Assembly: GCA_001709035.1 (NCBI GenBank)
Contig: LVKA01000015.1
Span: 186,001-250,000, forward strand
Source: Candidatus Thiodiazotropha endoloripes
Lineage (GTDB): Bacteria > Pseudomonadota > Gammaproteobacteria > Chromatiales > Chromatiaceae
DNA length: 64,000 nt
Reading direction: 5' to 3'
The position numbers and the translations under genes are program-made. Positions within the stretch are counted from its first letter, which is position 1; each line of letters opens with the position of its first letter. The notes under the pieces are model-generated. The model was not told the DNA's origin and searched no databases. It was given only the letters and a program-made list of their open reading frames with translations. Below, piece by piece: positions 827 through 32,646 of the stretch.

Positions 827-859
827 CCGTCCCACAGATAGAGAGAGTCACTGAACACC

Positions 860-5331: not shown

Positions 5332-5428
5332 CCTGCAAGCTGATGGCCAGGCACCGGATCAATCGTTGCGACTCATACTGGGACAGTTATGTATGCAACA
5401 ATAACCTATCGACCATCAGCGCTAGGCG

Positions 5429-7384: not shown

Positions 7385-7407
7385 CGATGGTCACTCCTGA
7401 TTTTCGC

Positions 7408-9633: not shown

Positions 9634-9953
9634 ATGGATTCCCCTACTTATTTGTATTGTTCGTTAAAGAGCTTTTGGCAAACAATCAATCACGATTGCG
9701 AAAAGTTATTAATCCGGATTTCAGTTTTTTTGAAATTTATCATCCTTTATCCAAGCACTAATTTACCTTTCCTGATAGGGGAATTATCAACTTATTATTA
9801 GAGGGATTTACTGGCAGGTGAAATGATTGATTACTCTGAATGAAACTTGAGAATTGACGCTATGGTTTCAGCACTATGAGATCCCTATCTCTAGAGCTAG
9901 ATGGGCATCCTGAAGTCGAATCGATACACATACTTCTGTATAGTGCCTGCCAT
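9634..9953. other. AT-rich intergenic region upstream of secreted-protein operon
   Basis: This stretch has no supported gene. It should hold the promoter of the minus-strand secreted-protein operon that starts at 9633. It is AT-rich (long T runs near 9725-9735) and ends at the terminator next to the chemoreceptor gene. I see no clear repeat or operator. Confidence 0.4.
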
Positions 9954-9982
9954 AAAAAAAGCGCCTTGATAGGCGCTTTTTT
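9954..9982 (-). terminator. Rho-independent terminator after chemoreceptor gene
   Basis: A GCGCCT / AGGCGC stem with a TGAT loop (9961-9976) is flanked by seven A on one side and six T on the other. It is therefore a canonical terminator for the minus-strand chemoreceptor gene ending at 10017 and could also work for plus-strand transcription. Confidence 0.9.
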
Positions 9983-10016
9983 CAGTCGTAACGGGGTGTA
10001 TTGAATGAGTCCCGGA

Positions 10017-11645
10017 TCAATCGATCTTAAAACGTCCCACCAGCTGTGAAATCTGGTTGGAGATTGTCTGCATCTCCAAACCCGTTGCTTCGGTCTGTGA
10101 TGTTGAGCTTTTGTTCTGTAGTGACAACGCCCCGACACTCGCGGTATTCCTTTCGATCTCCAGCGACACCACCTCCTGCTCCTCGGCCGCACTGGCAATC
10201 TCAACGTTCATATCCCGGATGTCTGCAACCACCCGGGTAATCTCGTCCAGTGCCGTACCCGCCTGAGCGGCCTGATTGAGTGTCTCCACCGCATCGTCAC
10301 GACGCCCCTCCATCATACCGGCTGTTTTGCGTGCACCCTCCTGCAGGCGTTCGATAATATCGTTGATTTCACGGGTAGAAGATTGGGTACGGCTGGCCAG
10401 GGTTCGGACCTCATCGGCAACCACAGCGAAGCCTCTGCCCATTTCACCGGCGCGTGCTGCTTCGATGGCCGCATTCAAGGCCAGTAGATTGGTCTGCTCG
10501 GCAATCCCCTTGATGACAGACACCACAACACCAACCTGGGCGGTCTCCTCCTCAAGCGCTTTCATATCGTTACTCGCCTGCTCAACACCCTGGGATAGCG
10601 TTTCGATCGCCTGCAGCGTCTGATCGACTACCTGACTGCCATGTTTTGCCTGATCATCGGCGTTTTCCGCCGCTGTCGCGGCGCCCGCTGCACTCGCTGC
10701 GACACTTTTCACGGTCGCTGTCATCTCCGTCATGGCGGTTGCCACCTGTCTCATTGCTTCATCCTGTTGATCAGCTGTGACTTTGGAAGCTTGCGCGACT
10801 TCAGCCAGCTCCGCTGAAAAAGAGTTCATCTGTTGGGAGGAGTTTGCGACCTTGCGTACCAGGCTTTGAGTTTCCGAGGCAAACTGATTGAAACCGCTCG
10901 CCAACCTCTCCAGCTCAACCCCACCCGCCAACGGCAGACGCTGAGTAAGATCTCCATCTCCGGCGCCGATCAACTCCAGACCATCAGCAACCCGGTTGAT
11001 ACTGCAAATGATGTTACGGCTGACCAGAAAATTCAGCAGCAACCCAATCAACAGCGCCATCACCCCAAGACCGGTACCGGCCATAAAGATATCCGCCACC
11101 TCCGTCCTGACGGTTTGCTGGGTAATCGCAGTACGTTCGGTTTCAGCAATAAGCAAAGGTTGCAGACGTTTACGGATATTGCCCCAGCTCTTCTGCACCT
11201 TAGCAGTGAACAGCCCTTTTGCCTCATCACGCCTGCCCTCGTCGATATATTTGATGACTGCCAGGGCATTCGGCAGGCATTGCGCCCACAGTTCTGAGAT
11301 CTCTTTGAGCTTGGCATACCCTGCCGGGTCATCCCTATAGAGTGCGTTGACGGCATGCAGCGCCTGATCGAACTGTTCTCCAGCTTTGGCCGCAACTTTT
11401 GCTGGTGGAACCAGACTGGGGACCATCACTTTTTTCGCTGCTGCGATAACGGCCTGGGAGCCCTCAGCCTGCATGGTGCGCAACAGTTCAATGCGTTTTT
11501 GATCTTGTTCAATGAAGCTGGTGAAGTGCTGACTGACCTGATCAGTACCGGTGAGCGTGTAGTAGAGTGCAAATATAAAGAGTGCTGACGTGATGCCGGT
11601 TACTGCCATCAGTTTTGCCCGAATAGAAAGACCAGTGCCGATCAT
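10017..11645 (-). CDS. Methyl-accepting chemotaxis protein
   Basis: The 542-residue protein is an inner-membrane chemoreceptor. Transmembrane helices lie at about 12-30 and 185-209 and enclose a periplasmic helical-bundle sensor domain of about 150 residues. A HAMP domain follows at about 209-262. The signalling hairpin tip, with the nearly invariant [20 protein letters not shown], is at residues 381-400. The protein signals through CheA/CheW to the flagellar motor or another output; no che genes are nearby. The start is supported by GGAGG about 9 bases upstream. The ligand cannot be predicted. It is monocistronic and followed by a strong terminator. Confidence 0.93.
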   Translation of the reverse strand: MIGTGLSIRAKLMAVTGITSALFIFALYYTLTGTDQVSQHFTSFIEQDQKRIELLRTMQAEGSQAVIAAAKKVMVPSLVPPAKVAAKAGEQFDQALHAVNALYRDDPAGYAKLKEISELWAQCLPNALAVIKYIDEGRRDEAKGLFTAKVQKSWGNIRKRLQPLLIAETERTAITQQTVRTEVADIFMAGTGLGVMALLIGLLLNFLVSRNIICSINRVADGLELIGAGDGDLTQRLPLAGGVELERLASGFNQFASETQSLVRKVANSSQQMNSFSAELAEVAQASKVTADQQDEAMRQVATAMTEMTATVKSVAASAAGAATAAENADDQAKHGSQVVDQTLQAIETLSQGVEQASNDMKALEEETAQVGVVVSVIKGIAEQTNLLALNAAIEAARAGEMGRGFAVVADEVRTLASRTQSSTREINDIIERLQEGARKTAGMMEGRRDDAVETLNQAAQAGTALDEITRVVADIRDMNVEIASAAEEQEVVSLEIERNTASVGALSLQNKSSTSQTEATGLEMQTISNQISQLVGRFKID

Positions 11646-13957: not shown

Positions 13958-15724
13958 ATGTGGGATCATATTAGAAGTTTGATGGCGGGCTGGAAAAACG
14001 CTTTTATCCCTTATTTGCAATGGATCGGCGAACTCAAGGACAAAAAGACGGTTCGGGCCGATCTCATCGCGGGCATAACTGTTGCCCTGGTGCTGGTTCC
14101 CCAATCCATGGCCTATGCACAACTGGCCGGTCTGCCGGTCTATTACGGTCTCTACGCCTCCTTCCTGCCGCCGATGATCGCCGCCCTGTTCGGTTCGTCG
14201 AGACAACTCGCCACCGGCCCGGTCGCCGTGGTCTCGCTGATGACCGCCGCCGCACTGGAACCCCTGGCCACTTCACCCGACACCTATTTAGCCTACGCCA
14301 TGCTGCTGGCACTGATGGTTGGCATCTTCCAGATGTTTCTCGGTCTGTTCAAACTCGGTGTGCTGGTGGACTTTCTCTCCCATCCTGTGGTGGTCGGTTT
14401 TACCAATGCCGGCGCACTGATTATCGCCACCTCACAACTGGGCAAGGTCTTCGGCGTCTTTGCGGAACGGGCGGAGCACCACTATGAGACTGTCTGGAAC
14501 ACCCTGCTTGCCGCCGCCGAGGGGACCCACGCTCCGACCCTGCTGATGGCGCTGATCGCGTTTGGCATCATGTGGGGAGTCAAGCGCTTCTATCCGGCAA
14601 TGCCCGGTGTATTGATCGCTGTGGTAGTGACCACGGTACTGGCCTGGACGACCGGTTTTGCCGATGCCGGCGGTAAAGTGGTAGGCACCATCCCGGACGG
14701 TCTGCCAAGCTTCTCCATACCGACCTTCGAGGTAACCACCATCTGGTCCCTGATTCCGGCCGCGATCACCATATCCCTGATCGGTTTCATGGAGGCGATC
14801 TCCATCGCCAAAGCGATGGCAGCCAGAACCCGACAGCGCCTCAATGCCAATCAGGAGCTGATTGGGCAGGGCTTGTCGAATGTCTTCTCAGGCATGTTTT
14901 CCGGCTACCCGGTATCGGGTTCCTTCTCCCGCTCTGCGGTCAACATCAATGCCGGTGCGATCACCGGATTCTCTTCCATCGTCACCGGTGTGGTGGTGAT
15001 GATCACCCTGATCTTTTTGACCCCGCTGCTCTATCATCTGCCCCAGGCAACACTGGCCGCGGTGATCATCATGGCGGTCATCAATCTGATCAAGATCGAC
15101 CCGATCATCCATGCCTGGAAAGCCGAGCCACACGATGCGGTGGTTTCGGTGGTCACCTTTGTGCTGACCCTGGCATTCGCCCCACATCTCGACAAAGGCA
15201 TCATCGTCGGCGTACTGCTCTCTCTGGGACTGTTTCTGTGGCGCACCATGCGTCCACGTTTCGCTCAACTCTCCCGCTACAAGGACGGCACCATGCGGGA
15301 TATCCGGGTGCGTAAGCTGCAGACCAGCTCGCAGATCTCGGTGGTACGCTTCGATGGCTCGCTCTATTTTGCCAGTGCCGGTTATTTCGAGACCAAAATG
15401 CTCGGCGTAGTGGCCGCCAATCCGGATCTCAAATACATCATTCTGGATGGTGAGGGCATCAATCAGATCGATGCCACCGGCGAAGAGGTTCTGCACCATC
15501 TCTGGGAGCGACTGCAGGCTCAGGGAATCACCCTGGTGGTCGCCAGAATGAAAAAGCAGTTCATGGATACCATCCGTCGTACCGGTCTGAAAGACAAAAT
15601 GGGTGATGAGATCTTCTACTCACGGATCGGTCTGGCGCTCAATTATGTCTGGGATCAGCTGGGCGACAGCTACGACCGGAATAGCTGCCCACTCAGGTCA
15701 CCACTCGCCAGCAGCCGAGCTTGA
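13958..15724 (+). CDS. SulP-family anion transporter with STAS domain
   Basis: This 588-residue inner-membrane protein belongs to the SLC26/SulP family. The N-terminus carries the family signature around VALVLVPQSMAYAQLAGLPV (about residues 44-63). The membrane domain runs to about 430, with GLSNVFSGMFSGYPVSGSFS near 307-326, and a cytoplasmic STAS domain occupies about 453-560. SulP proteins import sulfate or bicarbonate, usually with Na+ or protons. Its position 63 bp upstream of a DAB-type inorganic carbon system on the same strand makes bicarbonate the more attractive substrate, as reported for SulP proteins of chemolithoautotrophs such as Hydrogenovibrio. The sequence alone does not decide between sulfate and bicarbonate. 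Confidence 0.9.
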   Translation: MWDHIRSLMAGWKNAFIPYLQWIGELKDKKTVRADLIAGITVALVLVPQSMAYAQLAGLPVYYGLYASFLPPMIAALFGSSRQLATGPVAVVSLMTAAALEPLATSPDTYLAYAMLLALMVGIFQMFLGLFKLGVLVDFLSHPVVVGFTNAGALIIATSQLGKVFGVFAERAEHHYETVWNTLLAAAEGTHAPTLLMALIAFGIMWGVKRFYPAMPGVLIAVVVTTVLAWTTGFADAGGKVVGTIPDGLPSFSIPTFEVTTIWSLIPAAITISLIGFMEAISIAKAMAARTRQRLNANQELIGQGLSNVFSGMFSGYPVSGSFSRSAVNINAGAITGFSSIVTGVVVMITLIFLTPLLYHLPQATLAAVIIMAVINLIKIDPIIHAWKAEPHDAVVSVVTFVLTLAFAPHLDKGIIVGVLLSLGLFLWRTMRPRFAQLSRYKDGTMRDIRVRKLQTSSQISVVRFDGSLYFASAGYFETKMLGVVAANPDLKYIILDGEGINQIDATGEEVLHHLWERLQAQGITLVVARMKKQFMDTIRRTGLKDKMGDEIFYSRIGLALNYVWDQLGDSYDRNSCPLRSPLASSRA

Positions 15725-15787
15725 TACCGATGAGCAGGTTCTGCGAATGGCACTTATCTCGAGTGCCATTTTCGCTGGCAGGCTTCC

Positions 15788-17248
15788 ATGCCTAGTCTGA
15801 TCTACCTGATGCTGACACCCTTTGCCGGTGTCCTGGCAATGCTGTTTCTGCCCAGAGACGGGGTACGCCTGATCCGCTACACCGCCCTGTTTGCCTCTGC
15901 AGCGACCCTGCTGCTCGCCTGGTCCTACCTGGGGGCATTCGATCAAAACCAGGCCGGGTTGCAGTTTGTCCATCAGACCGAGTGGAATACCCGTCTCGGC
16001 ACCACCTTCACACTTGGACTGGACGGCTTCTCCTACCCGATGGTGCTGCTTGCCACCCTATTGAGTTTGGTCGCTCTGCTCGCTTCCAGCGCCATCCGTC
16101 AAGGGGTCAAGGGGTACTACATGCTGGTGCTGCTGCTTGAATCAGCCATGCTGGGTGTATTCCTGGCCCAGGACTGGTCCCTTTTCTATGTCTTCTGGGA
16201 ATTGACCCTGATTCCCCTGTTTTTCCTGATCGACCGATGGGGTGGCAGCAACCGCCACGGGGCAGCGCTCAATTTTGTCCTCTACACCATGGGTGGATCG
16301 GTATTCATGCTGATCAGCATCCTGGTGCTGTTCGATTCCGTGCCGGGTCACAGCTTCGCCATGGATGCGATGACCGAGACGAGCCGACTGCTACCCCAAC
16401 AGACCCAGATATTGATCTTTCTCGGCCTGCTGATCGGTTTTGGGGTGAAAATGCCGATCTTTCCACTCCATGGCTGGTTGCCCCTGGCTCATGTGGAGGC
16501 ACCCAGTCCGGTATCGATTCTGCTCTCAGGCATTCTGTTGAAGATGGGCTCCTATGGTCTGCTGCGGGCGGCGAGTATGCTGCCGGATGCGGTGATGGCA
16601 CTGCAGGAGGTACTCGCCATACTCGCCTTCATCAGTCTGATCTACGGTGGCTTGCTCGCCTGGCGGCACAGCGATCTCAAAGCGATGATCGCTTACTCCT
16701 CGATCAGCCACATGGGTGTGGTGTTACTGGGCATTGCCGCCCTCAATCTGGCGGGTCTGCACGGTGCACTGATGCAGATGGTGGCACACGGCCTGGTAGC
16801 CGGTTCGCTGTTTCTGCTGATCGGATTACTCTATGAAAGAACCCACACCCGCAATGTGATGGACTACAGTTCCCTGGTGCGGGTAATGCCCAGATTTGCC
16901 TTCTTTACCACCCTGGCCTTTATCGCTGCAGTATCCCTGCCGGGTACGGCGGGCTTTATCGCGGAACTGAATACCCTGATCGGTGGATTCTCCCGTTGGG
17001 GCTGGGCGGCCGCTCTACTGACTCTTGGAGTGCTGCTCAGTGCCGCCTATGCGGTCCGCACCATCAATCAGTTGTTTACCGGGCCAGTTCGTCCGGGGAT
17101 GCAGAATGTAGAGGATCTGCGCCCTTCGGAACTGATCGCGGCAGCTACTCTGGCAGCCTTTACCCTGCTGCTTGGTTTCCTGCCGGGGCCGGTATTGAGT
17201 CTGGTCAACGCCTCCGCATACCAGCTCGCTGAGCTGTTCAGGTTGTGA
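15788..17248 (+). CDS. NuoM-like proton-translocating subunit of DAB cluster
   Basis: The 486-residue membrane protein resembles the antiporter-like complex I subunit NuoM. It retains the TM5 glutamate (E138 in FYVFWELTLIP) and the TM7 lysine (K221 in GVKMPIFPLHGWLP), the residues that carry protons in complex I. No other complex I genes are nearby; instead its stop overlaps the region where dabA begins. It is therefore likely part of the carbon-uptake assembly and couples proton flow to DabA. DAB systems described from Halothiobacillus and Hydrogenovibrio consist of DabA plus one DabB, so this is an additional subunit. Confidence 0.85.
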   Translation: MPSLIYLMLTPFAGVLAMLFLPRDGVRLIRYTALFASAATLLLAWSYLGAFDQNQAGLQFVHQTEWNTRLGTTFTLGLDGFSYPMVLLATLLSLVALLASSAIRQGVKGYYMLVLLLESAMLGVFLAQDWSLFYVFWELTLIPLFFLIDRWGGSNRHGAALNFVLYTMGGSVFMLISILVLFDSVPGHSFAMDAMTETSRLLPQQTQILIFLGLLIGFGVKMPIFPLHGWLPLAHVEAPSPVSILLSGILLKMGSYGLLRAASMLPDAVMALQEVLAILAFISLIYGGLLAWRHSDLKAMIAYSSISHMGVVLLGIAALNLAGLHGALMQMVAHGLVAGSLFLLIGLLYERTHTRNVMDYSSLVRVMPRFAFFTTLAFIAAVSLPGTAGFIAELNTLIGGFSRWGWAAALLTLGVLLSAAYAVRTINQLFTGPVRPGMQNVEDLRPSELIAAATLAAFTLLLGFLPGPVLSLVNASAYQLAELFRL

Positions 17249-17256
17249 GGCCGGTT

Positions 17257-20200
17257 ATGCAGCAAACTCATTCACCAAGCCAGGAGATCCGAGAACAGAT
17301 CAGAGCGGCGATCGATCATCTTGCACACACTCTGCCCAGTCAGGCACCGATCCGGGATTTCGTGCATCACAATACACTGCACGGTTATCAGCATCTCCCC
17401 TTTCCTGAAGCCCTGGCAACGGCCCGCCGTCTGACCGGGGCCCGGGGTTATCTTCCGCTTGAGCGCTATCAGGCATTCCTCCGTCAGGGAAGGATTACCC
17501 GGGATGAACTTCGACACGGGATTGATGAGGAAACAGCGTTACAGCCCGAACTGCTGTTGGCGGAAACCGATCAATATCAACTGAAGCGCAGCGATGTCTA
17601 CCTGGCGGCAATGATCATGCCCGCCACGATTGTCTCCGGCTGCCAGCTCAACTGGCAGATCGAGGAGAACGGTGCACTGCAAAAGCTCAATCCCGAACTG
17701 CCCGTCACAGCCCGCAGACAACTGCTGGCGGACGCGGAAACTGCAGGCCAGGGCACTGAGGCAGCGGCAGTTGAGCATCTCTGGCAAGCCTGCCTTGCAG
17801 TCCTCAACCTCTCCTACGATCCAACCCATCCGGAGGAGCTGTTCGACCTGGCTCCCGATCTGGCTGAAACCCTGCTCCATGATCTATTGGATGGCAGCGA
17901 CAACCAGACCAGTTCACAAAGCAGCAGCCAATTGATGGAGCATTCAGCTCATCTGCGACTGGATGAGATGTTGGCGCAGCTTGGCCAGAGTAAGACCATG
18001 CGCGACCTGCTGCTTTCACTGACAGGTGAGGACCTGCTTGAAGCCATCAGACCCCAGCTGATCAGGGGACTGGGCAATTTTCTCGACCAGGGGGTATCGA
18101 GCTGGCAAGCGGAGTTTACCGAAGGTGGTTTCTACCACTTCTGGCGATCCCAGGCCGCTACCGACCCTGCCTGGCAGTTGGCCGGCATCGAAGGCTGGCA
18201 GCAGCACTTTGAACTGCTGGACAACGATCCCCTGGAGACCATCATCAGCGAACTGCATCGCATGGGGCTGGCACAGGAGCAGTGGACTGGCTATCTTGAA
18301 CGGCTGGCACTCGAACTGCCTGGCTGGTCAGGCATGGTGCTCTGGCGGCATAACAATCCGAACTATGAATCCCTCGCCGCACCGGTGGAGATGCTCGACT
18401 ACCTTGCGGTTCGCCTGGTCCTGGAACGGATCCATGCCCACAATCTCTGTGCCCAGCACTTCAATATCGAGTCGAGTCTCGACATGCTGCGCTGGTATTT
18501 CCGCCATCAGTTTGATGAGTTCACCGTCAGGGAGGCGCTGTTCAACAGCCGTCTGCCGGAATATCTCGCCAGTCGCGCACAACGGGCGCTGCACGCCCCT
18601 GAGCAGGGGGATGCCCCGGCCAATGCGAAACACTGGAACCACCTGGCACAACTGATCTGGACCTGGCGCCTGAGCAGTGGCCAGTCGCAAGGTCAGGATC
18701 GGCCAACCCTGTGCGACGGCGCCTGGCCCCTGTTCCAGCTTGCTCAGCACCTGGGCTGGTGTGGCAGCCAAGTGAGCCAACTCACTTTCGATCAGATCGG
18801 TGCGATATTCACCGCGCTGGATGAACTGGATAAGGACCGCCAGGGCTATATCTGGCTGAAAGCCTACGAAAAACACTATCGGGACAACATTCTCAAGGCC
18901 CTAGCGCAGAATCATGGTCGCGGAGCCTGGACCGATCGTGATGGTGCGCCTGCTGCACAACTGATCTTCTGCATGGATGATCGTGAGGAGGGTATCCGGC
19001 GTCATCTGGAAGAGATCTACCCGGAAGTTGAGACCCTGGGTGCTGCCGCCCACTTCAATGTGCCCCATAATTGGCAGGGACTGGACGATACAACCGCGGC
19101 CCCGCTGGCGCCGGTAATCCCGGCACCGGTGATTCCGGTTCATCAGGTATGCGAACAGCCGGCTGCTGAGCTGGCCACCCTGGGTGCACAACACAGAAAA
19201 CGTCACACGTTGCTCAATCAGGGCCACCAGAGACTTCTGCAGATGACCCGCCAGGGTATTGTTTTGCCCGGTCTGATTTCAGCACTGGCTGCTCCGCTGA
19301 CCCTGCCGGTGCTGATTGGCAAGGTCCTCGCACCCGGTCTGTTTGGCCGTTTGCAGCAACGACTTAAAAGCGGCTTTGAAAAGGATCTGCAGACCCGCAT
19401 CGATTTCACAGCACCCAATGAGAGTCCGGAAGCAACACTGCAGGCGCCACGCCTGGGATTTACCGATATCGAGCAGGCCGACCGGGTGCAGACCCTGCTG
19501 AAGGCTACCGGCCTCACCAGTGGCTTCAGCCCGCTGGTGATGATCCTTGGACATGGCTCCAGAAATCAGAACAATCCACACACCTCCGCCTACAACTGCG
19601 GTGCCTGCTCCGGTCGTTTCAGTGGCCCCAATGCCCGACTGGTCGCAGCCATGGCCAACCGCACCGAGGTGCGTAAACTGCTGAGTGAACGGGGCATCGA
19701 AATCCCGGCTGGGAGCTGGTTCATCGGTGCAGAGCACGACACCTGCAGCGATCAGGTCATCTGCTATGACCTGGACCTGATACCCGACTCGCTGAAAGCG
19801 GCCGCCGACCAACTTGACCAGGCCCTGATACAGGCCAGTCAACGTCACGCCCGGGAGCGCTGCAGACGCTTCGCCTCCGCACCGCACAATCTGACCGATC
19901 AACAGGCGATGGATCATGTGGCAGGCCGTGCCAACGACTTCTCACAGGCCCGGCCTGAGCTGGGCCATGCCACCAACGCCTGCGCCTTCATCGGTCGGCG
20001 CAGTCTCAGCCGGGGTGCATTCTTCGACCGACGGGCGTTTCTGATCTCTTACGATGCCAGCACCGATCCGCAAGGAGAGGTGCTGGAGCGCCACCTGCTG
20101 ATCAATGGTGCGGTGGGTGCCGGTATCAGCCTCGAGTACTACTTCTCCACGGTGGACAACGAAAACTATGGCAGCGGATCCAAGGTCACCCACAATGTGA

Positions 20201-20577
20201 CCGGTTTTCTCGGGGTCATGGAGGGTGCCAGTTCGGATCTTCGAACCGGCCTGCCCCGCCAGATGATCGAGATCCATGAAGCGATGCGTCTGCTGGTGGT
20301 GGTTGAGGCCAGCACAGAGATCCTCACCACCATCTACCAACGTCAACCGCCATTGCAGCAACTGGTTGGCAACGACTGGGTACAGTTGGTGGCCATCGAC
20401 CCACAGAGCGGCGAGTTGAAGCTGTTCAATCCCCGCCAGGGATGGATAGCCTGGCAGGCAGCGGATGAGCGACCCCTGACCAAGGTGGATAAATCGGAAG
20501 CCTGGTATCTGGGCTCATCAGGCGCACTGCCTACCGCATTGATCAAAACGCCGATGGAGGATACCGCTGATGATTGA
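17257..20577 (+). CDS. dabA: DabA inorganic carbon transporter catalytic subunit (DUF2309)
   Basis: I choose the ATG at 17257, 6 bases after GAGG, over the in-frame GTG at 17245 that overlaps the upstream stop. The 1106-residue product is a DUF2309/YbcC-family protein. The four zinc ligands known from Halothiobacillus DabA appear in order: C572 and D574 (FCMDDREEG), H766 (LGHGSRNQN) and C781 (YNCGAC). The His-Cys gap of 15 residues and the Cys-x-Asp pair match the known enzyme. DabA is cytoplasmic, peripheral to the membrane, and is thought to hydrate CO2 vectorially at a beta-carbonic-anhydrase-like site driven by cation flow through its DabB partner. At about 1100 residues it belongs to the long class. 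It overlaps dabB by 8 bp, which supports tight coupling. Confidence 0.93.
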   Translation: MQQTHSPSQEIREQIRAAIDHLAHTLPSQAPIRDFVHHNTLHGYQHLPFPEALATARRLTGARGYLPLERYQAFLRQGRITRDELRHGIDEETALQPELLLAETDQYQLKRSDVYLAAMIMPATIVSGCQLNWQIEENGALQKLNPELPVTARRQLLADAETAGQGTEAAAVEHLWQACLAVLNLSYDPTHPEELFDLAPDLAETLLHDLLDGSDNQTSSQSSSQLMEHSAHLRLDEMLAQLGQSKTMRDLLLSLTGEDLLEAIRPQLIRGLGNFLDQGVSSWQAEFTEGGFYHFWRSQAATDPAWQLAGIEGWQQHFELLDNDPLETIISELHRMGLAQEQWTGYLERLALELPGWSGMVLWRHNNPNYESLAAPVEMLDYLAVRLVLERIHAHNLCAQHFNIESSLDMLRWYFRHQFDEFTVREALFNSRLPEYLASRAQRALHAPEQGDAPANAKHWNHLAQLIWTWRLSSGQSQGQDRPTLCDGAWPLFQLAQHLGWCGSQVSQLTFDQIGAIFTALDELDKDRQGYIWLKAYEKHYRDNILKALAQNHGRGAWTDRDGAPAAQLIFCMDDREEGIRRHLEEIYPEVETLGAAAHFNVPHNWQGLDDTTAAPLAPVIPAPVIPVHQVCEQPAAELATLGAQHRKRHTLLNQGHQRLLQMTRQGIVLPGLISALAAPLTLPVLIGKVLAPGLFGRLQQRLKSGFEKDLQTRIDFTAPNESPEATLQAPRLGFTDIEQADRVQTLLKATGLTSGFSPLVMILGHGSRNQNNPHTSAYNCGACSGRFSGPNARLVAAMANRTEVRKLLSERGIEIPAGSWFIGAEHDTCSDQVICYDLDLIPDSLKAAADQLDQALIQASQRHARERCRRFASAPHNLTDQQAMDHVAGRANDFSQARPELGHATNACAFIGRRSLSRGAFFDRRAFLISYDASTDPQGEVLERHLLINGAVGAGISLEYYFSTVDNENYGSGSKVTHNVTGFLGVMEGASSDLRTGLPRQMIEIHEAMRLLVVVEASTEILTTIYQRQPPLQQLVGNDWVQLVAIDPQSGELKLFNPRQGWIAWQAADERPLTKVDKSEAWYLGSSGALPTALIKTPMEDTADD

Positions 20578-22123
20578 GCAGAGTGTGTGGCTGGTCCCCT
20601 TCGTCTATTGGCTCGCAGCCGCCTTTATCGCACTTGGCTACATCCTCAACTTCAACAGAGGGGAAGCGGGTGAACAGCTGACCGCTCATATCGCACTATC
20701 GTCTGCTGCGATTGCATTTCTGTTGAGTCTGGCTCTGGCCATCATGGGCCTCTGGCAGGGCCCTCCCGGGCAGGTCATCCTGGGTGAGTGGTTCAGCAGT
20801 GGCAAGATCGAACTGTCGATCAGTTTCAGTCTGGATGTTATCGGCCTGTCACTGCTGCCGGTGATAACCCTGATCGCCTTGCTGACCCTCAGGTTCTCGG
20901 TCAACTACCTGCATCGGGAAGCAGGATTTCAGCGCGCCTTCTTACTGCTCAGCCTCTTTTCCGGCGCCATGTCGCTGATCGTTATTGCCGGCAATGCGGT
21001 GTTGGCTTTTGTCGGCTGGGAGATTGCCGGTGTCACATCCTATCTGTTGATCGGTTATGCGATCGAACGAACCACGGCCACCAGAAATGCGGTGCGGGTA
21101 TTCGTCACCAACCGCATCGGCGATGCGGGGTTCATCCTCGGAATCGCCCTCTCCCTCTACTGGCTGGGAAGTGTGGAGTGGCCGGAGATCGCCCGCCATG
21201 GCAGTGAGCTGGACACCCTGGCTGCCGGCGTGGTGATTATGGGCTTTGTCATCGCTGCATTGGCCAAATCGGCTCAGATCCCATTCTCTCCATGGATTTC
21301 CAGGGCTCTGGAAGGACCGACACCGACCTCGGCCATCTTCTACGGTTCGTTGATGGTGCATGCGGGTGTGATCCTGATGATTCGCCTCGCCCCATTGCTA
21401 CAGCAGGCACCGGCAATCATGGTGATCATTGCCCTGCTGGGTTTATTGACCGTGGCCTACGGCTGGCTCTCCGGACTGAGTCAGACCGACATCAAAAGTT
21501 CATTGATGTTCGCCACCACTACGCAACTGGGTTGGATGTTTTTCTGGTGCGGCATGGGCTGGTTCACCCTGGCAGCCTGGCATCTGGCGCTACACGCCAT
21601 CTGGCGGGTTTTCCAGTTTCTCGCCTCCCCCGGCCTGGTCAATCAGATCGACAAGCCCACCCCAGCGGTGCCTGAGTGGCTGTCCCGCCAACGCTGGCTG
21701 CATCGGGCCTCACTGCAACGCTTCTGGCTCGATCCACTGGCCGATGTGCTACTGGTCAGACCGACCAACTCCCTGGCCAAGGATGTGCAGTATTTCGACG
21801 AACAGGTGGTGACCCGTCTGGTCGGCCTGCCGATCTACTCCCGCAGTGTCTCCTCGCTGAGCCAGTGGGAAGCAATCCAACAGCAGAAACCGGGCGGCCC
21901 GGTGGATGTCAATCAGGCCACCGGTGTGGCCGGTCGACTGATGGCCTGGCTGGCCAACCTGCTGTATTGGTTCGAGTCCCACCTGGTGTTACGGGAGGGC
22001 GGCGCCAGTCTGTGGGATTCGATGCATCGCATCGGCACACTGGTGGAACGGGTCGAGCAGTTGCTGACTGAGCCCCGTTATCTGATTCTGCTGGTCATGG
22101 CGACCTTTGCGGTGATTCTCTAG
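20570..22123 (+). CDS. dabB: DabB, NuoL-like membrane subunit
   Basis: This 517-residue protein resembles NuoL/NdhF and fits the DabB partner of DabA. The conserved TM5 glutamate is E151 (AFVGWEIAGVTSY) and the TM7 lysine is K233 (ALAKSAQIPFSPW). The 8-bp overlap with dabA and the NuoL-like rather than NuoM-like character identify it as the primary coupling subunit. The C-terminal third departs from NuoL: after about residue 345 it contains a polar segment (ARLVGLPIYSRSVSSLSQWE region) and a final hydrophobic helix, instead of the long lateral helix of complex I. In the DAB model it carries protons or sodium down the gradient to power DabA. Confidence 0.88.
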   Translation: MIEQSVWLVPFVYWLAAAFIALGYILNFNRGEAGEQLTAHIALSSAAIAFLLSLALAIMGLWQGPPGQVILGEWFSSGKIELSISFSLDVIGLSLLPVITLIALLTLRFSVNYLHREAGFQRAFLLLSLFSGAMSLIVIAGNAVLAFVGWEIAGVTSYLLIGYAIERTTATRNAVRVFVTNRIGDAGFILGIALSLYWLGSVEWPEIARHGSELDTLAAGVVIMGFVIAALAKSAQIPFSPWISRALEGPTPTSAIFYGSLMVHAGVILMIRLAPLLQQAPAIMVIIALLGLLTVAYGWLSGLSQTDIKSSLMFATTTQLGWMFFWCGMGWFTLAAWHLALHAIWRVFQFLASPGLVNQIDKPTPAVPEWLSRQRWLHRASLQRFWLDPLADVLLVRPTNSLAKDVQYFDEQVVTRLVGLPIYSRSVSSLSQWEAIQQQKPGGPVDVNQATGVAGRLMAWLANLLYWFESHLVLREGGASLWDSMHRIGTLVERVEQLLTEPRYLILLVMATFAVIL

Positions 22124-22132
22124 GGGGGCCTG

Positions 22133-23647
22133 ATGACCATAGATACCATCCACTGGTCGACTCAAATCGGCTACCCCATACTCTCACTGCTGCAACTGCT
22201 GCCGCTGCTCTCTCTGTTTGCCATCTGGCTGCTGAAGCGCCATCCCCTGCTGGTGCCGGCTGCTATCGCCGCCGCCTCAATTGAACTGCTGCTGGGCATC
22301 GATCTCTGGCGCCACTACGACAGCAGTGTCAGCAGTATGCAGTTCAGTGAAACCGCACAACTCTTCTCCGTCCTCAATTACCAGGCCGCTGTGGATGGTC
22401 TCTCGGTGGTATTTATCCTGCTGACCGGTCTGCTGACGTTGCTGTTGATACTCTATGGTAAGGTTCGCGAGCTCAAACCTTACAACCACCTCTTCATGGC
22501 CACCTTCGCGGTACAGGCCTGCCTGATGGGTATGTTCGTTACCCTCAACCTGCTGCTGTTTGTGCTGATCTCGGCAGTCCAGATCGGTATCGTGGGTTAC
22601 ATACTTTGGCGCTGGGGTAACTCCCCGGACAAAGGTATGGCGATGCGGCGGTTTTATCAGTTCATGACGATCAGCATTCTGTTGCTGTTGACCGGCACCC
22701 TGCTGCTTGGCTGGAACTACGCAGACAGTCACCAGGGGGTTTGGGCCTTCGATCTGATTCAACTGGCCAAAGCGCCAGTCTCCGAGACTTTCCGTTCAGT
22801 GGCATTCTTTCTGCTGTTCTACGGTCTGGCCATCCGTACCCCGCTGTTTCCGTTGCACGGTTGGTTGCCACTGGTTGCCGAGCACGGCAACGTAGCTGTT
22901 GGACCTACCCTGTTGCTCGGTTTGAAGATCGGCATCTATGGGCTGTTTCGATTCGTATTGCCGCTGCTGCCTACGGCCGTGATCGAGTGGCACAACTATG
23001 TGGTCACCTTTGCCCTGTGCGGCATATTCTACGCCGCCTTCCTGGCCATGATGCAGGATAACCTGCGGCGTCTGCTGGCCTATGCGGTGATCTCCCATAC
23101 CGGAATCTTGATACTCGGGGTGTTCAGCCTGGAACATGCCGCTTTCATGGGCAGTGTGATTCTATCGCTCACCTTCGGTCTCGCACTGGCCGCCCTGGTC
23201 TTCACTACCGGCCTGCTCTATCGTCGCACCCATACCACCCTGCTACCCAACCTGGGGGGACTGTTCGACAATCTGCCGTTTCTCGGCATCACTTTTCTGA
23301 TCGGTGGCCTGGCGATCATCGGCATGCCCGGCACCCCGGGATTCGATGCGGTACATCTGATTCTGGAATCGGCAATCCACAAGTTCGGTGCCCTGGTGAC
23401 CATCGCATCCGCTCTGGGTAATGTGGCAGCCGCCGGCTTTCTGCTGTGGGCCTTCCAGCGGGCATTTCTGGCCCCCAGACCCGCTGGTGCGCAAGCCTAT
23501 CAGAACATTGCAATCACCAAAGCGGAAGTGTTCGTGGTCAGCTCCCTGGTGGTCGTGCTGCTGAGTGCCGGCTTCTATATCGAACCCTGGCTGAAACTGA
23601 TCGACCAGCCCCTGTCGGCACTGAGTGCCCTCTACACATCCCATTGA
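22133..23647 (+). CDS. NuoM/N-like subunit with altered proton-path residues
   Basis: The 504-residue membrane protein clearly belongs to the antiporter-like family (GLAIRTPLFPLHGWLPLVAE at about 231-250; YAVISHTGILILGVFSLEH later). Two key residues differ from its neighbours. The TM5 Phe-Trp-Glu is replaced by LLLFVLISAVQ (about 141-150), so the glutamate is absent, and the TM7 lysine is R235. It starts 9 bp after dabB behind a G-rich ribosome site and is thus part of the same operon. It could be a structural or regulatory subunit that no longer pumps, or use a different proton route. An error in the sequence is unlikely because the frame is intact and the changes are local. Confidence 0.82.
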   Translation: MTIDTIHWSTQIGYPILSLLQLLPLLSLFAIWLLKRHPLLVPAAIAAASIELLLGIDLWRHYDSSVSSMQFSETAQLFSVLNYQAAVDGLSVVFILLTGLLTLLLILYGKVRELKPYNHLFMATFAVQACLMGMFVTLNLLLFVLISAVQIGIVGYILWRWGNSPDKGMAMRRFYQFMTISILLLLTGTLLLGWNYADSHQGVWAFDLIQLAKAPVSETFRSVAFFLLFYGLAIRTPLFPLHGWLPLVAEHGNVAVGPTLLLGLKIGIYGLFRFVLPLLPTAVIEWHNYVVTFALCGIFYAAFLAMMQDNLRRLLAYAVISHTGILILGVFSLEHAAFMGSVILSLTFGLALAALVFTTGLLYRRTHTTLLPNLGGLFDNLPFLGITFLIGGLAIIGMPGTPGFDAVHLILESAIHKFGALVTIASALGNVAAAGFLLWAFQRAFLAPRPAGAQAYQNIAITKAEVFVVSSLVVVLLSAGFYIEPWLKLIDQPLSALSALYTSH

Positions 23648-23660
23648 GAAGCTAATCACC

Positions 23661-25163
23661 ATGGGCCGAATCGAAACACTCACCAACATGCCGCTGCTCT
23701 CAACCCTGCTGTTGTTGCCACTGCTCGGTATCGCCATGATCTGGCTGATTCCCCAGGTAAGAGCCAGGTTGATCAGCCTGGTCACACTGGGCCTGGCCCT
23801 GATCCCGGCCCTCGCTGCGCTGATTCTGCTGGATAGTGCCAGCAGTGACTTCCAGATGGTGGAGACCTACCCCTGGATACCGGCGCTGGATGCCCATTTC
23901 AGATTCGGCATCGATGGCTTTTCCGCCCCTTTTCTGCCGCTGACGATCTTGCTGTTTATCGCCGTGACCCTGGCTTCATGGAAGCGGACCCAGAACATGC
24001 CGCGTATCTACTACAGTCTGCTGCTGATGTTCGCCACCGCCACTCTGGGGGTCTTTATCAGCATCGATACCCTGGCCTTTTTCCTGTTTTGGGAACTGAC
24101 CCTGGCGCCACTCTATTTTCTGATCAGCTTATGGGGCATCGGCCCACATCGGCGTTACGCCGCCACCAAGTACACCCTGTTCATGCTGGCCGGCGGTATC
24201 CCCCTGTTGCTGGCTTTTACCGTACTGGCGATCAACCACGCTGAGATCATCGGGGCGACTCCCCCGGCGGGACTCTCATTCGACTATCTGACACTGCTCG
24301 ACACACCCCTGCCCCCAGGCATGGAGACCATCGTCTTTGTTTTCCTGCTGATCGGTTTTGCCATCAAAACCCCTCTGTTCCCTCTACACACCTGGCTACC
24401 GATCGTAGCCCTGGAGGGGCCGGTGCCGATTGCCGCACTGTTGGTCGGGTTGAAACTGGGCGCCTATGGACTAATCCGTTTTGCCATCCCCCTGGCGCCC
24501 ACCGCTGCCCAGGAGTTGCACTGGTTGTTGGCCGGGCTTGGCGTGGTGGGCATCCTGTATGGTGCACTGGCCGCACTGAATCAGACCAATCTGCGTCGTA
24601 TGCTCGCTTATTCATCGATGAGCCATGTCGGTCTGGTTGTGCTGGGTGTCGCCGCTTTCAATCAGCAGGGCCTGCAGGGCGCGATGTTCCAGCTCTACAA
24701 CTTTGTGCTGATTGCCGGCGGCCTGTTTCTACTCACCGGTTATCTGCACCATCGCCTGGGCTCAACAGACCTGATCCATCTCGGAGGTGTGGCCCAATCC
24801 ATGCCGCTGCTGGCTGCCTTCTTCATGTTTCTCGGTCTCGCCTCACTGGGGATACCCGGTACCAGTGGATTCCCGGCTGAGTTTCTGATCCTCATCAGCG
24901 CCCTGACTACCCATACTGGTGCCGGGTTGGCTGCGTTGTTCGGCATCATCATCGGAGCCGGCTATCTGCTCAACAGCTATCGACAAAGTTTTTACGGACC
25001 AATTACCGACAGTCAGGTTCGCACCGCTCAGGATCTGAAACCCAGAGAACTGTTGACCATGCTGGTGTTTTCCCTGCTGGTGCTGATGTTCGGTCTGTTT
25101 CCCGGAAAAGTACTGGATTTGACTCAGGCAACCGCAGCTGCATGGCTATCCAGGTTGCAGTGA
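23661..25163 (+). CDS. NuoM-like proton-translocating subunit, last gene of DAB cluster
   Basis: I place the start at ATG 23661, 13 bp after the previous stop and downstream of GAGAAG; an in-frame ATG at 23625 lies inside the preceding gene. The 500-residue protein has the NuoM hallmarks: E145 in FFLFWELTLAPLYFLI and K236 in GFAIKTPLFPLHTWLP. It is the fourth antiporter-like protein in a row and closes the operon. Together with the proteins at 15788 and 20570 it provides three subunits with complete Glu/Lys pairs. No NuoA-K or Mrp genes accompany it, so a stray complex I operon is not a good explanation. Confidence 0.86.
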   Translation: MGRIETLTNMPLLSTLLLLPLLGIAMIWLIPQVRARLISLVTLGLALIPALAALILLDSASSDFQMVETYPWIPALDAHFRFGIDGFSAPFLPLTILLFIAVTLASWKRTQNMPRIYYSLLLMFATATLGVFISIDTLAFFLFWELTLAPLYFLISLWGIGPHRRYAATKYTLFMLAGGIPLLLAFTVLAINHAEIIGATPPAGLSFDYLTLLDTPLPPGMETIVFVFLLIGFAIKTPLFPLHTWLPIVALEGPVPIAALLVGLKLGAYGLIRFAIPLAPTAAQELHWLLAGLGVVGILYGALAALNQTNLRRMLAYSSMSHVGLVVLGVAAFNQQGLQGAMFQLYNFVLIAGGLFLLTGYLHHRLGSTDLIHLGGVAQSMPLLAAFFMFLGLASLGIPGTSGFPAEFLILISALTTHTGAGLAALFGIIIGAGYLLNSYRQSFYGPITDSQVRTAQDLKPRELLTMLVFSLLVLMFGLFPGKVLDLTQATAAAWLSRLQ

Positions 25164-25793: not shown

Positions 25794-27806
25794 ATGAAAC
25801 CACCGAAGATCGGACATCTCTCCATAGGCTTTGGCGTGACCCTGCTGATCTCACTCGGCATTGTCGGTTATCTGTCGTTCACTGGTGATCAAATGGCCCG
25901 TCGCCATGCACCACAGATCGATGCGGCGATGGAAATCAAGCACAATGCCACCATGGCACACCTCTGGTTCGAGGAGATCATCTCCGGCGACCGCAATGAA
26001 CTGATCGAGGATGTCTGGCACTATCTGGATGAGTCCGACTGGTATGCACGCGCCCTGCTTGAGGGGGGCAGCAATCAGGAAGGAACCTTCGTACCACTGC
26101 AATCGAAATCGATGCGTCAGCAGATTGAGTCAGTACGCAAAGCACTTGATCAATTCCGCCGTATTGCTGAAGAACGTTATAGCAACTACGCAGCCTCCCT
26201 GCCGGGTTCCGGCATCGATCAGAAATTTGACCAGGTGTTTGCCAGCTTTATCGACCAAGCGGACCAGGTCAAGACCCTGCTGCAAGCATCCATCAATGCT
26301 GAAATGAAAAGGTTCGAGCAAATCACCGTCATTCTGGTGGTTATGCTGCTCACCACAGGCATCATTGTTGCGGTAAGCCTTTTTCGTCTGGAAGGTCAAA
26401 GAACCCACAATCTTTTGACAATTGAGCAGCGAAACAAAGAGATCGAATCCCAGAACAACCGACTCGACTACCTTGCACACTTCGACAGTCTTTGCGGCCT
26501 ACCCAACCGAACACTGTTCATTGACAGACTCGAAACCGCAATAACCCATGCGAAAAGAAAATCAAACTGCGTGGCAATGTTGTTCATCGATCTCGACCGC
26601 TTTAAGAGTGTCAACGATCGTCTGGGCCATGTTAACGGAGATCAACTTTTAACGTTCGCAGCCAAGCGCATCCAGCAGAGTCTGCGTGAAGATGATTCAG
26701 TGGCCCGTTTGGGGGGGGATGAGTTCACGGTGATTCTGGCGGACCTGGATGATCGGGATCACGCCACTGCAGCGGCGCAGTCGGTTGCAGACACCATCGC
26801 TCATGAGTTGGCGAAATCCTATAACATCAATGGCCATCAGGTGGAACTCTCGGCTAGTATCGGCATCGCCATCTATCCATACGATGCACTGGAAGCGGAT
26901 GAACTGGTAATCAATGCCGACCATGCCATGTACGAGGCAAAAAAGAGTGCCCGGGGCAGTTTTCTCTTCTACTCCGATGAGATCAACAAGCGAGTGAAAC
27001 GGACACTACAGATTGAACACGATCTGCGTACGGCAATCCGTGAACAACAGTTTACTGTCTACTTTCAACCACAATGGGATCTGCACAACGATACCATTTG
27101 CGGATTCGAAGCCCTGGTACGCTGGCAACATCCCACTGAAGGTTTAATGCTGCCTGGTGAATTTATCCAGATCGCTGAACACTCCGGACAGATTGCCGAG
27201 ATTGATCTGATGATTTTGAAAATGGCCTGTCAACAACAGCAGCAGTGGATAAAACAGGGATTGAAACCAGGCAAAATGGCCGTCAACATCTCCGCCATGC
27301 TGTTCTCCCAAACCGATATTGCCAAAATAGTCTCCAGCAATATTACCGAGTATTGCCTTAGTGGCCATGAACTGGAAATTGAGTTAACCGAATCGGCAAT
27401 GCTGCATGATATCAACCATACCAAAGAGGTGTTCAAGCAGCTGAGTCACATCGGCATACCATTAGCCATCGATGACTTTGGTACCGGCTACTCCTCGATG
27501 GCCTATTTGCATAACCTGCCGGCAAAAATCATCAAAATCGATCGGACTTTCATACGCAACATCGAGCGTAATAAAACCGGGCAAGCCATCGTTCAAAGTA
27601 TGTTGGAGCTCGCCGAGAGTATGGGCATGGAAGCGATCGCTGAAGGCATTGAGACGAATCAGGAGCACAGCTTCGTCAGATCAACCAAATGCCGTATTGG
27701 GCAGGGTTATCTGCTGGGCAGACCGATGACAGCCGAGCAGGCCCACTCCCTGCTGATCTCCCAGCAGGAAGAGAATGTAACCCTGATGCCGCCCAGGGAA
27801 CAATAA
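25794..27806 (+). CDS. Membrane GGDEF-EAL cyclic-di-GMP enzyme
   Basis: The 670-residue protein has transmembrane helices at about 10-28 and 177-197 with a helical periplasmic sensor region between them. A GGDEF diguanylate cyclase domain follows with the intact signature G307-G308-D309-E310-F311, then an EAL phosphodiesterase domain with E439-A-L441 and DDFGTGYSS at 560-568. Both signatures look catalytically competent, so it could make or degrade cyclic-di-GMP depending on the input. The periplasmic part is a four-helix-bundle-like sensor with no ligand signature I know. It is transcribed alone and precedes the phnD-like/chemoreceptor pair by 324 bp. Confidence 0.92.
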   Translation: MKPPKIGHLSIGFGVTLLISLGIVGYLSFTGDQMARRHAPQIDAAMEIKHNATMAHLWFEEIISGDRNELIEDVWHYLDESDWYARALLEGGSNQEGTFVPLQSKSMRQQIESVRKALDQFRRIAEERYSNYAASLPGSGIDQKFDQVFASFIDQADQVKTLLQASINAEMKRFEQITVILVVMLLTTGIIVAVSLFRLEGQRTHNLLTIEQRNKEIESQNNRLDYLAHFDSLCGLPNRTLFIDRLETAITHAKRKSNCVAMLFIDLDRFKSVNDRLGHVNGDQLLTFAAKRIQQSLREDDSVARLGGDEFTVILADLDDRDHATAAAQSVADTIAHELAKSYNINGHQVELSASIGIAIYPYDALEADELVINADHAMYEAKKSARGSFLFYSDEINKRVKRTLQIEHDLRTAIREQQFTVYFQPQWDLHNDTICGFEALVRWQHPTEGLMLPGEFIQIAEHSGQIAEIDLMILKMACQQQQQWIKQGLKPGKMAVNISAMLFSQTDIAKIVSSNITEYCLSGHELEIELTESAMLHDINHTKEVFKQLSHIGIPLAIDDFGTGYSSMAYLHNLPAKIIKIDRTFIRNIERNKTGQAIVQSMLELAESMGMEAIAEGIETNQEHSFVRSTKCRIGQGYLLGRPMTAEQAHSLLISQQEENVTLMPPREQ

Positions 27807-28130: not shown

Positions 28131-29027
28131 ATGAAACGTTTATTGGCTATTGCCTCTATTGCGGTACTTTCCAGTATTTTAGCCATTACTAATTCTGCAT
28201 ACGCCGATGATTACAAAATCGGTGTACTGGCAAAAAGAGGCGTTGCTAAAGCCATGAAGAAATGGGGTGACACTGCAGAATACATGACTGAAAAAATTGC
28301 TGGTGACAAGTTCACGATTGTGCCCCTGGATTTTGATGAAGTTTTTCCTGCTATTGAAAATAAAGAAGTGGATTTCTTTCTGGTGAACTCCTCCATGTTT
28401 GTTACCGCGCAAGTTAAATATGGAGCCAAAGCTGTAGCTACAATGGTTAATTCCCGTCAAGGAGAGGCGTTGAAATCCTTTGGCGGTGTCATACTCACCT
28501 ATATAGATCGAGATGACATCAACAGTGCCGCTGATATCAAAGGCAAAAATTTCATGGCGGTAAAAGAGAGCTCTTTTGGTGGTTGGCAGATGGCATACAA
28601 AGAGTTGCTTGATCAGGGCGTGGATCCAACAAAAGATTTCGCCAGTCTGCAGTTTGGCGGAAAACACGACAATGTGGTGTTTGCCGTGCAAAATGGTGAA
28701 GTGGATGCCGGCACTGTTCGCACTGATACACTGGAACGTATGGCTTCCGCTGGTGATATCGATCTTTCTGAATTTAAGATCATCTCATCAAAAACACACT
28801 CAGGCTTCCCTTTTGTTGTCAGCACTGCACTCTACCCGGAGTGGCCATTCGCAAAAATTTCGGATACTCCGGACGATGTAGCCAGCCGGGCTGCCAATGC
28901 GTTAATTGCTCTGAAAAGTGATGCCAAGGCCGCACAGAGTGCCAAAATCGTAGGTTGGACTGCACCGCTTGACTATACGGAAGTGGAAGATCTGCAAAAG
29001 CTGCTTAAAGTGGGTGCATATCAATAG
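28131..29027 (+). CDS. PhnD-like periplasmic phosphonate/phosphite-type binding protein
   Basis: The 298-residue protein is exported (signal peptide 1-25, cleavage after SAYA) and belongs to the PhnD/phosphate-phosphite-phosphonate substrate-binding family. It shows the characteristic Y-K-I-G-V-L start, the VDFFLVNSSMFVTAQ segment, SRQGEALKSFGGVILTY, KGKNFMAVKESSFGGWQM and the VFAVQNGEVDAGTVRTD segment. No ABC permease or ATPase genes lie nearby. Instead a chemoreceptor gene follows 78 bp downstream on the same strand, so the protein probably delivers a ligand signal to that receptor rather than feeding a transporter. Many PhnD-like proteins are linked to sensor proteins, and the ligand need not be a phosphonate. 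Confidence 0.82.
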   Translation: MKRLLAIASIAVLSSILAITNSAYADDYKIGVLAKRGVAKAMKKWGDTAEYMTEKIAGDKFTIVPLDFDEVFPAIENKEVDFFLVNSSMFVTAQVKYGAKAVATMVNSRQGEALKSFGGVILTYIDRDDINSAADIKGKNFMAVKESSFGGWQMAYKELLDQGVDPTKDFASLQFGGKHDNVVFAVQNGEVDAGTVRTDTLERMASAGDIDLSEFKIISSKTHSGFPFVVSTALYPEWPFAKISDTPDDVASRAANALIALKSDAKAAQSAKIVGWTAPLDYTEVEDLQKLLKVGAYQ

Positions 29028-32257: not shown

Positions 32258-32646
32258 GGTCACCTTCCTGCCGGAATATTATTCTTAGCCGACGAGCCTG
32301 CAACTCACTTTTCAGTGGTTTTAAGCATGCCTTTGATTCAGGCTTGGCTCACCGGGTTAACAGAACGTTGCACCAACTGTTGCAGCCTGTCAAATATCTC
32401 TCAATCGAGAGGATAAACGTCCACAATTGGCAGCGTCGTTGATTATGCCGATTGGCCGTTTGCGGTGTAATCTGCCAGGCCATCAAGCGGTTGTAGCAGG
32501 GAGAACCAGTCCGTATAGTGAGTCGGATAGGCTTTATCAGTCAATTCCGGCCGGATTTCCACAAATTTCCCATCGAATCAATCTGCCCCTGGGATGCGAA
32601 ACCGTGAGAAAATGGGGCCGTTCCTAATGAGCAACGAGATATCGAC
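32258..32646. other. Divergent intergenic region, carbonic-anhydrase-like / bolA
   Basis: The region carries the promoters of the minus-strand carbonic-anhydrase-like gene and the plus-strand bolA-like gene. I find no coding sequence, repeat or obvious operator in it. Confidence 0.4.

Follow-up and report, generated by a model that had tools for sequence, protein, structure and literature searches.

Among the closest described relatives of the system treated here is DAB2 of Halothiobacillus neapolitanus. Loss of its zinc ligands or of its Asp-Arg dyad impairs growth at low CO2, Glu444 of DabA, located within a membrane finger, is essential, His260 and Lys347 of DabB are required, and this DabB has an isoleucine where NuoL carries the Glu of transmembrane helix (TM) 5; introducing a Glu at this position reduced the growth yield by half (PMC13144422). 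In the COGNAT study, ybcC genes (that is, DabA) located upstream of a nuoL homologue were found often to have COG0659 (SulP) and COG1008 (NuoM) in their neighbourhood, and the number of membrane subunits was suggested to relate to the number of ions (PMC5700660). Here, we describe an operon of six genes, SulP, M1, DabA, DabB, M2 and M3, located on the + strand at 13958-25163 of a 64,000-nucleotide stretch (hereafter the window) of contig LVKA01000015.1 (positions 186,001 to 250,000) from Candidatus Thiodiazotropha endoloripes, whose genome is 4.87 Mb. The gene content and the residues discussed below suggest, with a probability of about 0.6, that M1-DabA-DabB-M2-M3 encode a single membrane complex, a one-way CO2 hydratase driven by the proton motive force (PMF) and equipped with an antiporter arm like that of complex I. 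The features of the operon are the following:

13958..15724, + strand: SulP family anion transporter with a STAS domain, 588 amino acids (PF00916, NCBIfam sulP)
15788..17248, + strand: M1, NuoM-like antiporter-like subunit, 486 amino acids (PF00361; NDH_I_M, 481 bits)
17257..20577, + strand: DabA, zinc beta-carbonic-anhydrase-like subunit, 1106 amino acids from the ATG (PF10070, 776 bits)
19255..19335, + strand: hydrophobic hairpin of DabA (residues 671-697, GTG numbering), the putative counterpart of the finger of DAB2 but lacking the Glu
20570..22123, + strand: DabB, NuoL-like subunit, 517 amino acids (PF00361, match to 9rd0_B)
22133..23647, + strand: M2, NuoM-derived subunit, 504 amino acids (PF00361; NDH_I_M, 297 bits)
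23661..25163, + strand: M3, NuoM-like subunit, 500 amino acids from the ATG (PF00361; NDH_I_M, 446 bits)

The gene calls, strand, order and coordinates given in a preliminary description of this DNA are borne out by the open reading frames (ORFs) and by Pfam, and so are the overlaps or gaps of 8 to 63 bp that it reported. Counted from the ATG starts, SulP and M1 are separated by 63 bp, M1 and DabA by 8 bp, DabB and M2 by 9 bp and M2 and M3 by 13 bp, while DabA and DabB overlap by 8 bp. M1, DabB, M2 and M3 all match PF00361.

The five genes M1-DabA-DabB-M2-M3 are conserved as a unit. Named genomes were scanned for DabA, which gave 327 confirmed stretches; the nearest 79 loci (43 to 91% identity) were analysed. 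The nearest relatives, from Candidatus Thiodiazotropha sp. 'RUGA' and a Stewartia floridana symbiont, both reach 91%, which points to a sulfur-oxidising symbiont of lucinid clams, belonging to this genus, as the most likely host of the window. The loci carry the labels Thiodiazotropha and other symbionts, Thiobacillus, Rhodocyclaceae, Sulfuricellaceae, Thiotrichaceae and Magnetococcales, among others. In loci with room for the gene, M1 lies directly 5' of DabA in 69/69 cases (67 found by script; M1 of L074 and L089, missed by its overlap rule, was seen on inspection), and DabB, M2 and M3 lie 3' of DabA in 55/55. All 53 named loci that extend far enough in both directions show the complete order (52 by script and L074 by inspection). 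In a Thiothrix locus (L077, 8433-23111), the DabA-DabB pair is duplicated inside the operon, giving M1-DabA-DabB-DabA-DabB-M2-M3.

PF10070 is present in 96 of 370 Gammaproteobacteria genomes. From 100 regions of such genomes and two earlier loci, 103 DabA of at least 500 amino acids (the minimum used for class and order counts) were classed by profile hidden Markov model scores, as were the DabB: 79 belong to a two-gene type, 22 to the type of the window and two are odd. DabB lies upstream of DabA in 76/79 loci of the two-gene type, no neighbour being found for the other three, whereas DabA precedes DabB here and DabB is downstream in 18/22 loci of the window type. Among the four others, L175 has its DabB 4.6 kb off, and in genomes G316, G382 and G090 it is located elsewhere in the genome. 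In a tree of 46 DabA, which agrees with the score-based classes except for one odd row, the two types fall on opposite sides of a branch with an SH-aLRT of 100; both odd rows lie on the window's side, one of them among the window's class itself. The preliminary description had proposed a comparison of gene neighbourhoods and suspected a distinct, extended class of DAB; such a class is supported by this tree and by the five-gene order of the 53 near relatives. Next to the window's class (SH-aLRT 92) branches the DabA of locus L174 (positions 1-11000, genome G049; together with L291, 10874-12382), where DabA stands beside Mrp antiporter genes: SulP and DabA are followed by MNHE, MrpF, MrpG, MbhD/MbhE, MnhB and Oxidored_q2 matches in Pfam, then by a PF00361 gene, another with a NuoL N-terminus and a NuoM-like gene.

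M2 is distributed like the DabA of the window type. Its profile, for which usually no more than four candidates were scored per genome, reaches at least 485 bits in 24/370 genomes, the next score being 326, and all 24 have a PF10070 match. M2 occurs in 22 of the 24 genomes with a window-type DabA, the contigs of the other two (G073 and G306) ending inside DabB; the two remaining genomes with M2 (G391 and G107) hold DabA fragments that were not classed. A tree of 75 subunits places M1 as the sister of NuoM (96/87) and M2 and M3 as sisters of each other (99/97). DabB, adjacent to DabA and NuoL-like as in DAB/DAC systems (20570-22123), groups with the two-gene DabB beside NuoL.

The window DabA matches PF10070 with 776 bits and the solved DabA2 (9rd0_A) in phmmer with an E-value of 1.9e-62. 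Like the DabA of DAB/DAC systems, it combines PF10070 with a zinc Cys-His-Cys site (C572, H766 and C781) and an Asp-Arg dyad (D574-R576). The preliminary numbering of C572, D574, H766 and C781 holds with the ATG at 17257; with an alternative GTG start at 17245, which is open, the residues become C576, D578, R580, H770 and C785. The ATG is preferred because, in the relative L014, a stop codon lies between the GTG and the ATG, just upstream of the latter. In alignments of DabA longer than 650 amino acids, 183/183 sequences retain the zinc Cys, His and Cys, and the dyad shows two exceptions in the window class (n = 102), Glu replacing the Asp in one case and Gln the Arg in the other; about 15 of these 102 are Thiodiazotropha-like, so that the counts do not represent independent events. 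The column taken as Glu444 of DAB2, set by the alignment of relatives and by spacing (88-100 residues past the zinc Cys, 93 in DAB2), holds Glu in 79/79 two-gene DabA but no Glu and five Asp in the 102 of the window class. The Asp are those of L189, L191, L206, L207 and L239, and the four of these that the tree includes branch early within the class. The window DabA itself does not have the acidic finger residue of DAB2, and its hairpin is devoid of any acid.

DabB of the window is a short NuoL-like protein. It resembles NuoL to about residue 365, where the NuoL profile match ends, and continues with a polar region and a single C-terminal hydrophobic segment, its PF00361 match covering only profile positions 1-220 of 294. 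According to hydropathy, no hydrophobic segment occurs in residues 333-505, where two-gene DabB have about four, so that TM12-15 of the DAB2 type are missing. The C-terminus gives a weak profile signal to the NuoL lateral helix (a single pair, E-values of 0.09 and 0.022), and weak second domains also appear among the structure-database matches of DabB. Residues were counted in ORFs of 430-620 amino acids with set scores for M1, DabB, M2 and M3 and of 430-760 amino acids for two-gene DabB, and family members had to show more than 85% coverage and set bit scores. The window DabB keeps Glu151 and Lys233, and the TM5 Glu is found in 85/85 DabB of its class versus 0/75 two-gene DabB. In all 85, the position of the NuoM TM8 Lys is occupied by His, and the positions of NuoL H254 and K342 by Tyr and Arg, respectively; the 75 two-gene DabB all have His and Lys at these two NuoL positions. 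Among the 161 pairs from loci with exactly one DabB, 84 combine the absence of a finger acid with a TM5 Glu, 74 a finger Glu with the absence of a TM5 Glu, and the remaining three a finger Asp with a TM5 Glu, none being off-pattern.

The three additional subunits are not equivalent. M1 has the full NuoM charge set (E138, K221, K252 and E393), the TM5 Glu, TM7 Lys, TM8 Lys and TM12 Glu being kept in 89/89 aligned sequences, and so does M3 (E157, K248, K277 and E419 in GTG numbering, although an ATG start is present; 71/71 aligned M3). Judging from these residues and from the lack of TM12-15 in DabB, no subunit other than M1 and M3 resembles an ordinary NuoM channel. M2 has A148, R235 and V407 at NuoM charge sites and retains K265 and E412. 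In the 77 aligned M2, neither the NuoM TM5 Glu nor the TM12 Glu is ever found, Arg always replaces the TM7 Lys and the TM8 Lys is always retained. Nevertheless, M2 may still conduct, since the NuoN TM5 site carries an acid in 36/77 (Gln in 40/77, including the window) and, in 77/77, the residue five positions after the NuoM TM12 site is acidic (76 Glu and one Asp). The sites follow E. coli numbering, their roles being drawn in part from PMC13144422 and PMC11496545.

The genes of the unit persist even where they are dispersed. In five genomes with scattered operons (G086, G204, G316, G382 and G090), matches to DabA, M1, DabB and M2 are all found, M1 being away from DabA, elsewhere in the genome, in G086 and G204. 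In G090, M1-DabB-M2-M3 are contiguous (L292, 8446-14510) and DabA is on another contig. In one related family, DabB and M2 are joined in one reading frame of about 1045 amino acids. Of the 39 genomes of this family that were searched, 19, belonging to five genera, have one frame matched along some 1000 residues or more, with a stop reported inside the match in one of them (G408); the other 20 genomes show partial matches, weaker antiporter-like matches only or, in one case, none. This DabB::M2 protein argues for one complex, in which the C-terminus of DabB and the N-terminus of M2 would probably be close in space.

The genome has 12 PF00361 genes, and those of the window's contig are the four of the operon only. 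The homologues of E. coli NuoL, NuoM and NuoN are carried by contig C10, which rules out a complex I displaced into the window and agrees with the preliminary view that the extra antiporter-like genes do not belong to complex I; a three-gene cluster (C7:567740-571682) and a pair (C21:7183-9563) are further PF00361 sets, distant from both complex I and the operon. Among the six operon genes, Pfam detected neither a redox or quinone gene of complex I, and thus no linked NuoA-N set, nor any of the small subunits MrpB, C, E, F and G. The claim that no other complex I or Mrp gene is present stands as regards PF00361; small Mrp and Nuo subunits were not specifically sought in the window, the Pfam scan having taken in 23 of its 33 ORFs of 250 amino acids or more. 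The genome also encodes a large subunit of RuBisCO, probably of form I (803 bits with NCBIfam PRK04208), and has one PF00484 carbonic anhydrase match (46 bits).

The following working scheme can be drawn. The five subunits would assemble and hydrate CO2 to bicarbonate in the cytoplasm in a single direction, at the expense of the PMF; drive, substrate and direction are carried over from DAB2. DabA would hold the buried zinc site. DabB would lie beneath it as the NuoL-like end of the antiporter arm, and M2, a natural candidate to complete the half-channel given the fusion and the missing helices of DabB, would stand against DabB in place of TM12-15. M1 and M3 would be ordinary proton channels, M2 conducting weakly or not at all. 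Because DabA lacks the finger Glu and DabB keeps the TM5 Glu/TM7 Lys pair, coupling would probably occur not via the finger but through a relay of ion pairs between subunits, such as complex I has in its membrane arm, though free of redox chemistry. In complex I, the Glu-Lys pair is located at subunit interfaces and modulates the neighbouring subunit (PMC11496545). This precise version, a relay-gated redox-free complex I arm in which M2 is both an altered channel and a structural stand-in for the missing helices of DabB, can only be put forward tentatively. Two to three protons per CO2 would be a guess, and four are less likely. One proton at a typical PMF is enough for a steep bicarbonate gradient; the extra channels may therefore allow the complex to operate when the PMF is low instead of making the gradient steeper. 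The bicarbonate would presumably feed the RuBisCO found in the genome.

Other readings of the operon have to be weighed against this complex. DAB2 functions with DabA and DabB only (PMC13144422), M1 and M3 resemble complete channels, and the relative L174 has its DabA beside Mrp antiporter genes; DabA-DabB could thus be a self-sufficient pair co-expressed with a separate ion antiporter made of M1-M3, involved for example in pH balance. Such a separation is unlikely in view of the co-occurrence and conserved order of the genes, of the DabB::M2 fusion and of the lack of TM12-15 in DabB and of the finger Glu in DabA. The preliminary description saw instead one DabA driven by several proton channels, which would move more protons per bicarbonate; with four equivalent channels, about four protons would be spent per bicarbonate. 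The same idea was already printed in 2017 (PMC5700660). While the four PF00361 proteins, the complete NuoM charges of M1 and M3 and the acids of M2 at the NuoN TM5 site (36/77) and near the TM12 site (77/77) speak for it, four equal channels are unlikely, and this reading as a whole is quite improbable, as M2 has lost the NuoM TM5 and TM12 Glu in 77/77 and has Arg for the TM7 Lys, and DabB is devoid of the TM12-15 segments.

The same complex might alternatively be coupled to sodium or work by Na+/bicarbonate symport. This has been argued for MpsAB, which is reported to be sodium-linked, whereas DAB2 is not (PMC13144422). The DabA of L174 does occur with Mrp genes, but M1 and M3 carry the NuoM charge set, and sodium coupling is considered improbable. 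Finally, it was proposed in 2017 for such operons, before the function of DabA was known, that an exergonic reaction of DabA pumps ions out (PMC5700660). This reverse operation is barely credible, as relatives of DabA accumulate inorganic carbon in an uncoupler-sensitive manner (PMC13144422) and the residues of the window DabA fit a carbonic anhydrase site.

Several points weigh against the PMF-driven five-subunit complex that we favour. The complex is predicted from gene sequences, and the 53 loci of conserved order were drawn from the nearest of the 327 DabA relatives. DabA2 is a remote relative of the DabA of this class, whose activity is predicted, and the finger column was positioned from alignment and spacing rather than on the solved DAB2 sequence itself; moreover, some acid occurs among the hairpin columns in 10/102 DabA of the class. 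The residue contrast lies between two clades and may reflect one evolutionary event. In DabB, the counterparts of DAB2 His260 and Lys347 are Tyr and Arg, which could mean that coupling is impaired rather than rerouted. M2 retains acids near, not at, the NuoM sites, and the fusion indicates only that the DabB C-terminus and the M2 N-terminus are close.

SulP is an optional neighbour. The gene matches PF00916 (377 bits, with STAS) and NCBIfam sulP (469 bits, above its cut-off). The preliminary description was right that the DabA set follows a SulP gene in the window, but this association is not constant: SulP lies 5' of M1 on the same strand in 21/51 named loci with room, a count that leaves out L089, whose adjacent SulP falls outside the scripted rule. 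SulP was therefore rejected as a constant member of the operon. Its identification as the bicarbonate transporter BicA was rejected as well (155.7 bits with the NCBIfam BicA model for a cut-off of 880). In T. pelophila, one SulP rescued a carbonic anhydrase-deficient E. coli and another did not (PMC12628692).

Downstream of the operon, the + strand encodes a GGDEF-EAL protein (25794-27806), a phosphonate-type binding protein (28131-29027) and a chemoreceptor (29106-31049). About 6 kb from the operon, a protein of 356 amino acids (31193-32263, - strand) gives a match to the carboxysome shell carbonic anhydrase catalytic domain (PF20686, 25.4 bits for a cut-off of 21.5), in which a CMDGR motif is followed further on by His and Cys, and scores 40 bits with the NCBIfam carboxysome carbonic anhydrase model, below its cut-off of 241; it is possibly a stand-alone carbonic anhydrase. 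Further away, a pyruvate:ferredoxin/flavodoxin oxidoreductase-like protein of 1645 amino acids is encoded (57889-62826, +). In sequence scans for signals, four sigma-70 promoter-like sites were found versus 6.2 expected, and 18 terminator-like sites versus 9.1 expected, every one within genes; neither set was used.

The published mechanism of DAB2 rests on a finger Glu and on DabB helices that are absent from this class, which therefore couples differently or not at all. The class offers a small, natural, redox-free system for asking how antiporter-like subunits signal, a question debated for complex I, and it bears on the proton cost of the carbon pump. As it occurs in sulfur-oxidiser symbionts and in genomes labelled Thiobacillus, Rhodocyclaceae and Magnetococcales, it may matter for dark carbon fixation. 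No experimental work on the five-gene form was found in the open-access literature, and the word NuoM is absent from the accessible parts of the DAC minireview (PMC10880623) and of the T. pelophila paper (PMC12628692).

As compared with known systems, the window operon shares with DAB2 of H. neapolitanus (DabA2-DabB2, PDB 9rd0) the zinc Cys-His-Cys site and the Asp-Arg dyad of DabA, and Lys235, Lys310, His339 and His343 of DabB (here K233, K309, H338 and H342). DAB2 consists of two subunits with a finger Glu444 and 15 TM helices in DabB, whereas five subunits, no finger Glu and no TM12-15 are found here; likewise, Ile151, His260 and Lys347 of its DabB correspond to Glu151, Tyr258 and Arg346 (PMC13144422). 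DAB1 of the same organism has the PF10070 and PF00361 pair in common with the operon. It has a third small protein, contrary to the preliminary statement that characterised DABs are made of one DabA and one DabB, but this extra subunit is a small hypothetical transmembrane protein and not a NuoM (PMC13144422). The channel residues of M1 and M3 and the ion pair of DabB are shared with the membrane arm of respiratory complex I, from which the operon differs by the absence of any redox or quinone gene among its six genes and by the alteration of M2 and DabB. Mrp and the antiporter modules of membrane hydrogenases also contain PF00361 subunits, but the six genes include no Mrp small subunit. The 'clade C' of ybcC/COG3002, in which DabA lies upstream of a nuoL homologue with COG0659 and COG1008, as here, very probably corresponds to the same class; the COGNAT section on ybcC operons contains neither a formula of five genes nor an analysis of residues, and assigns no function in carbon metabolism (PMC5700660). 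The operon can thus be regarded as a variant of the known DAB type, DabA operons with SulP and NuoM having been noted since 2017 (PMC5700660).

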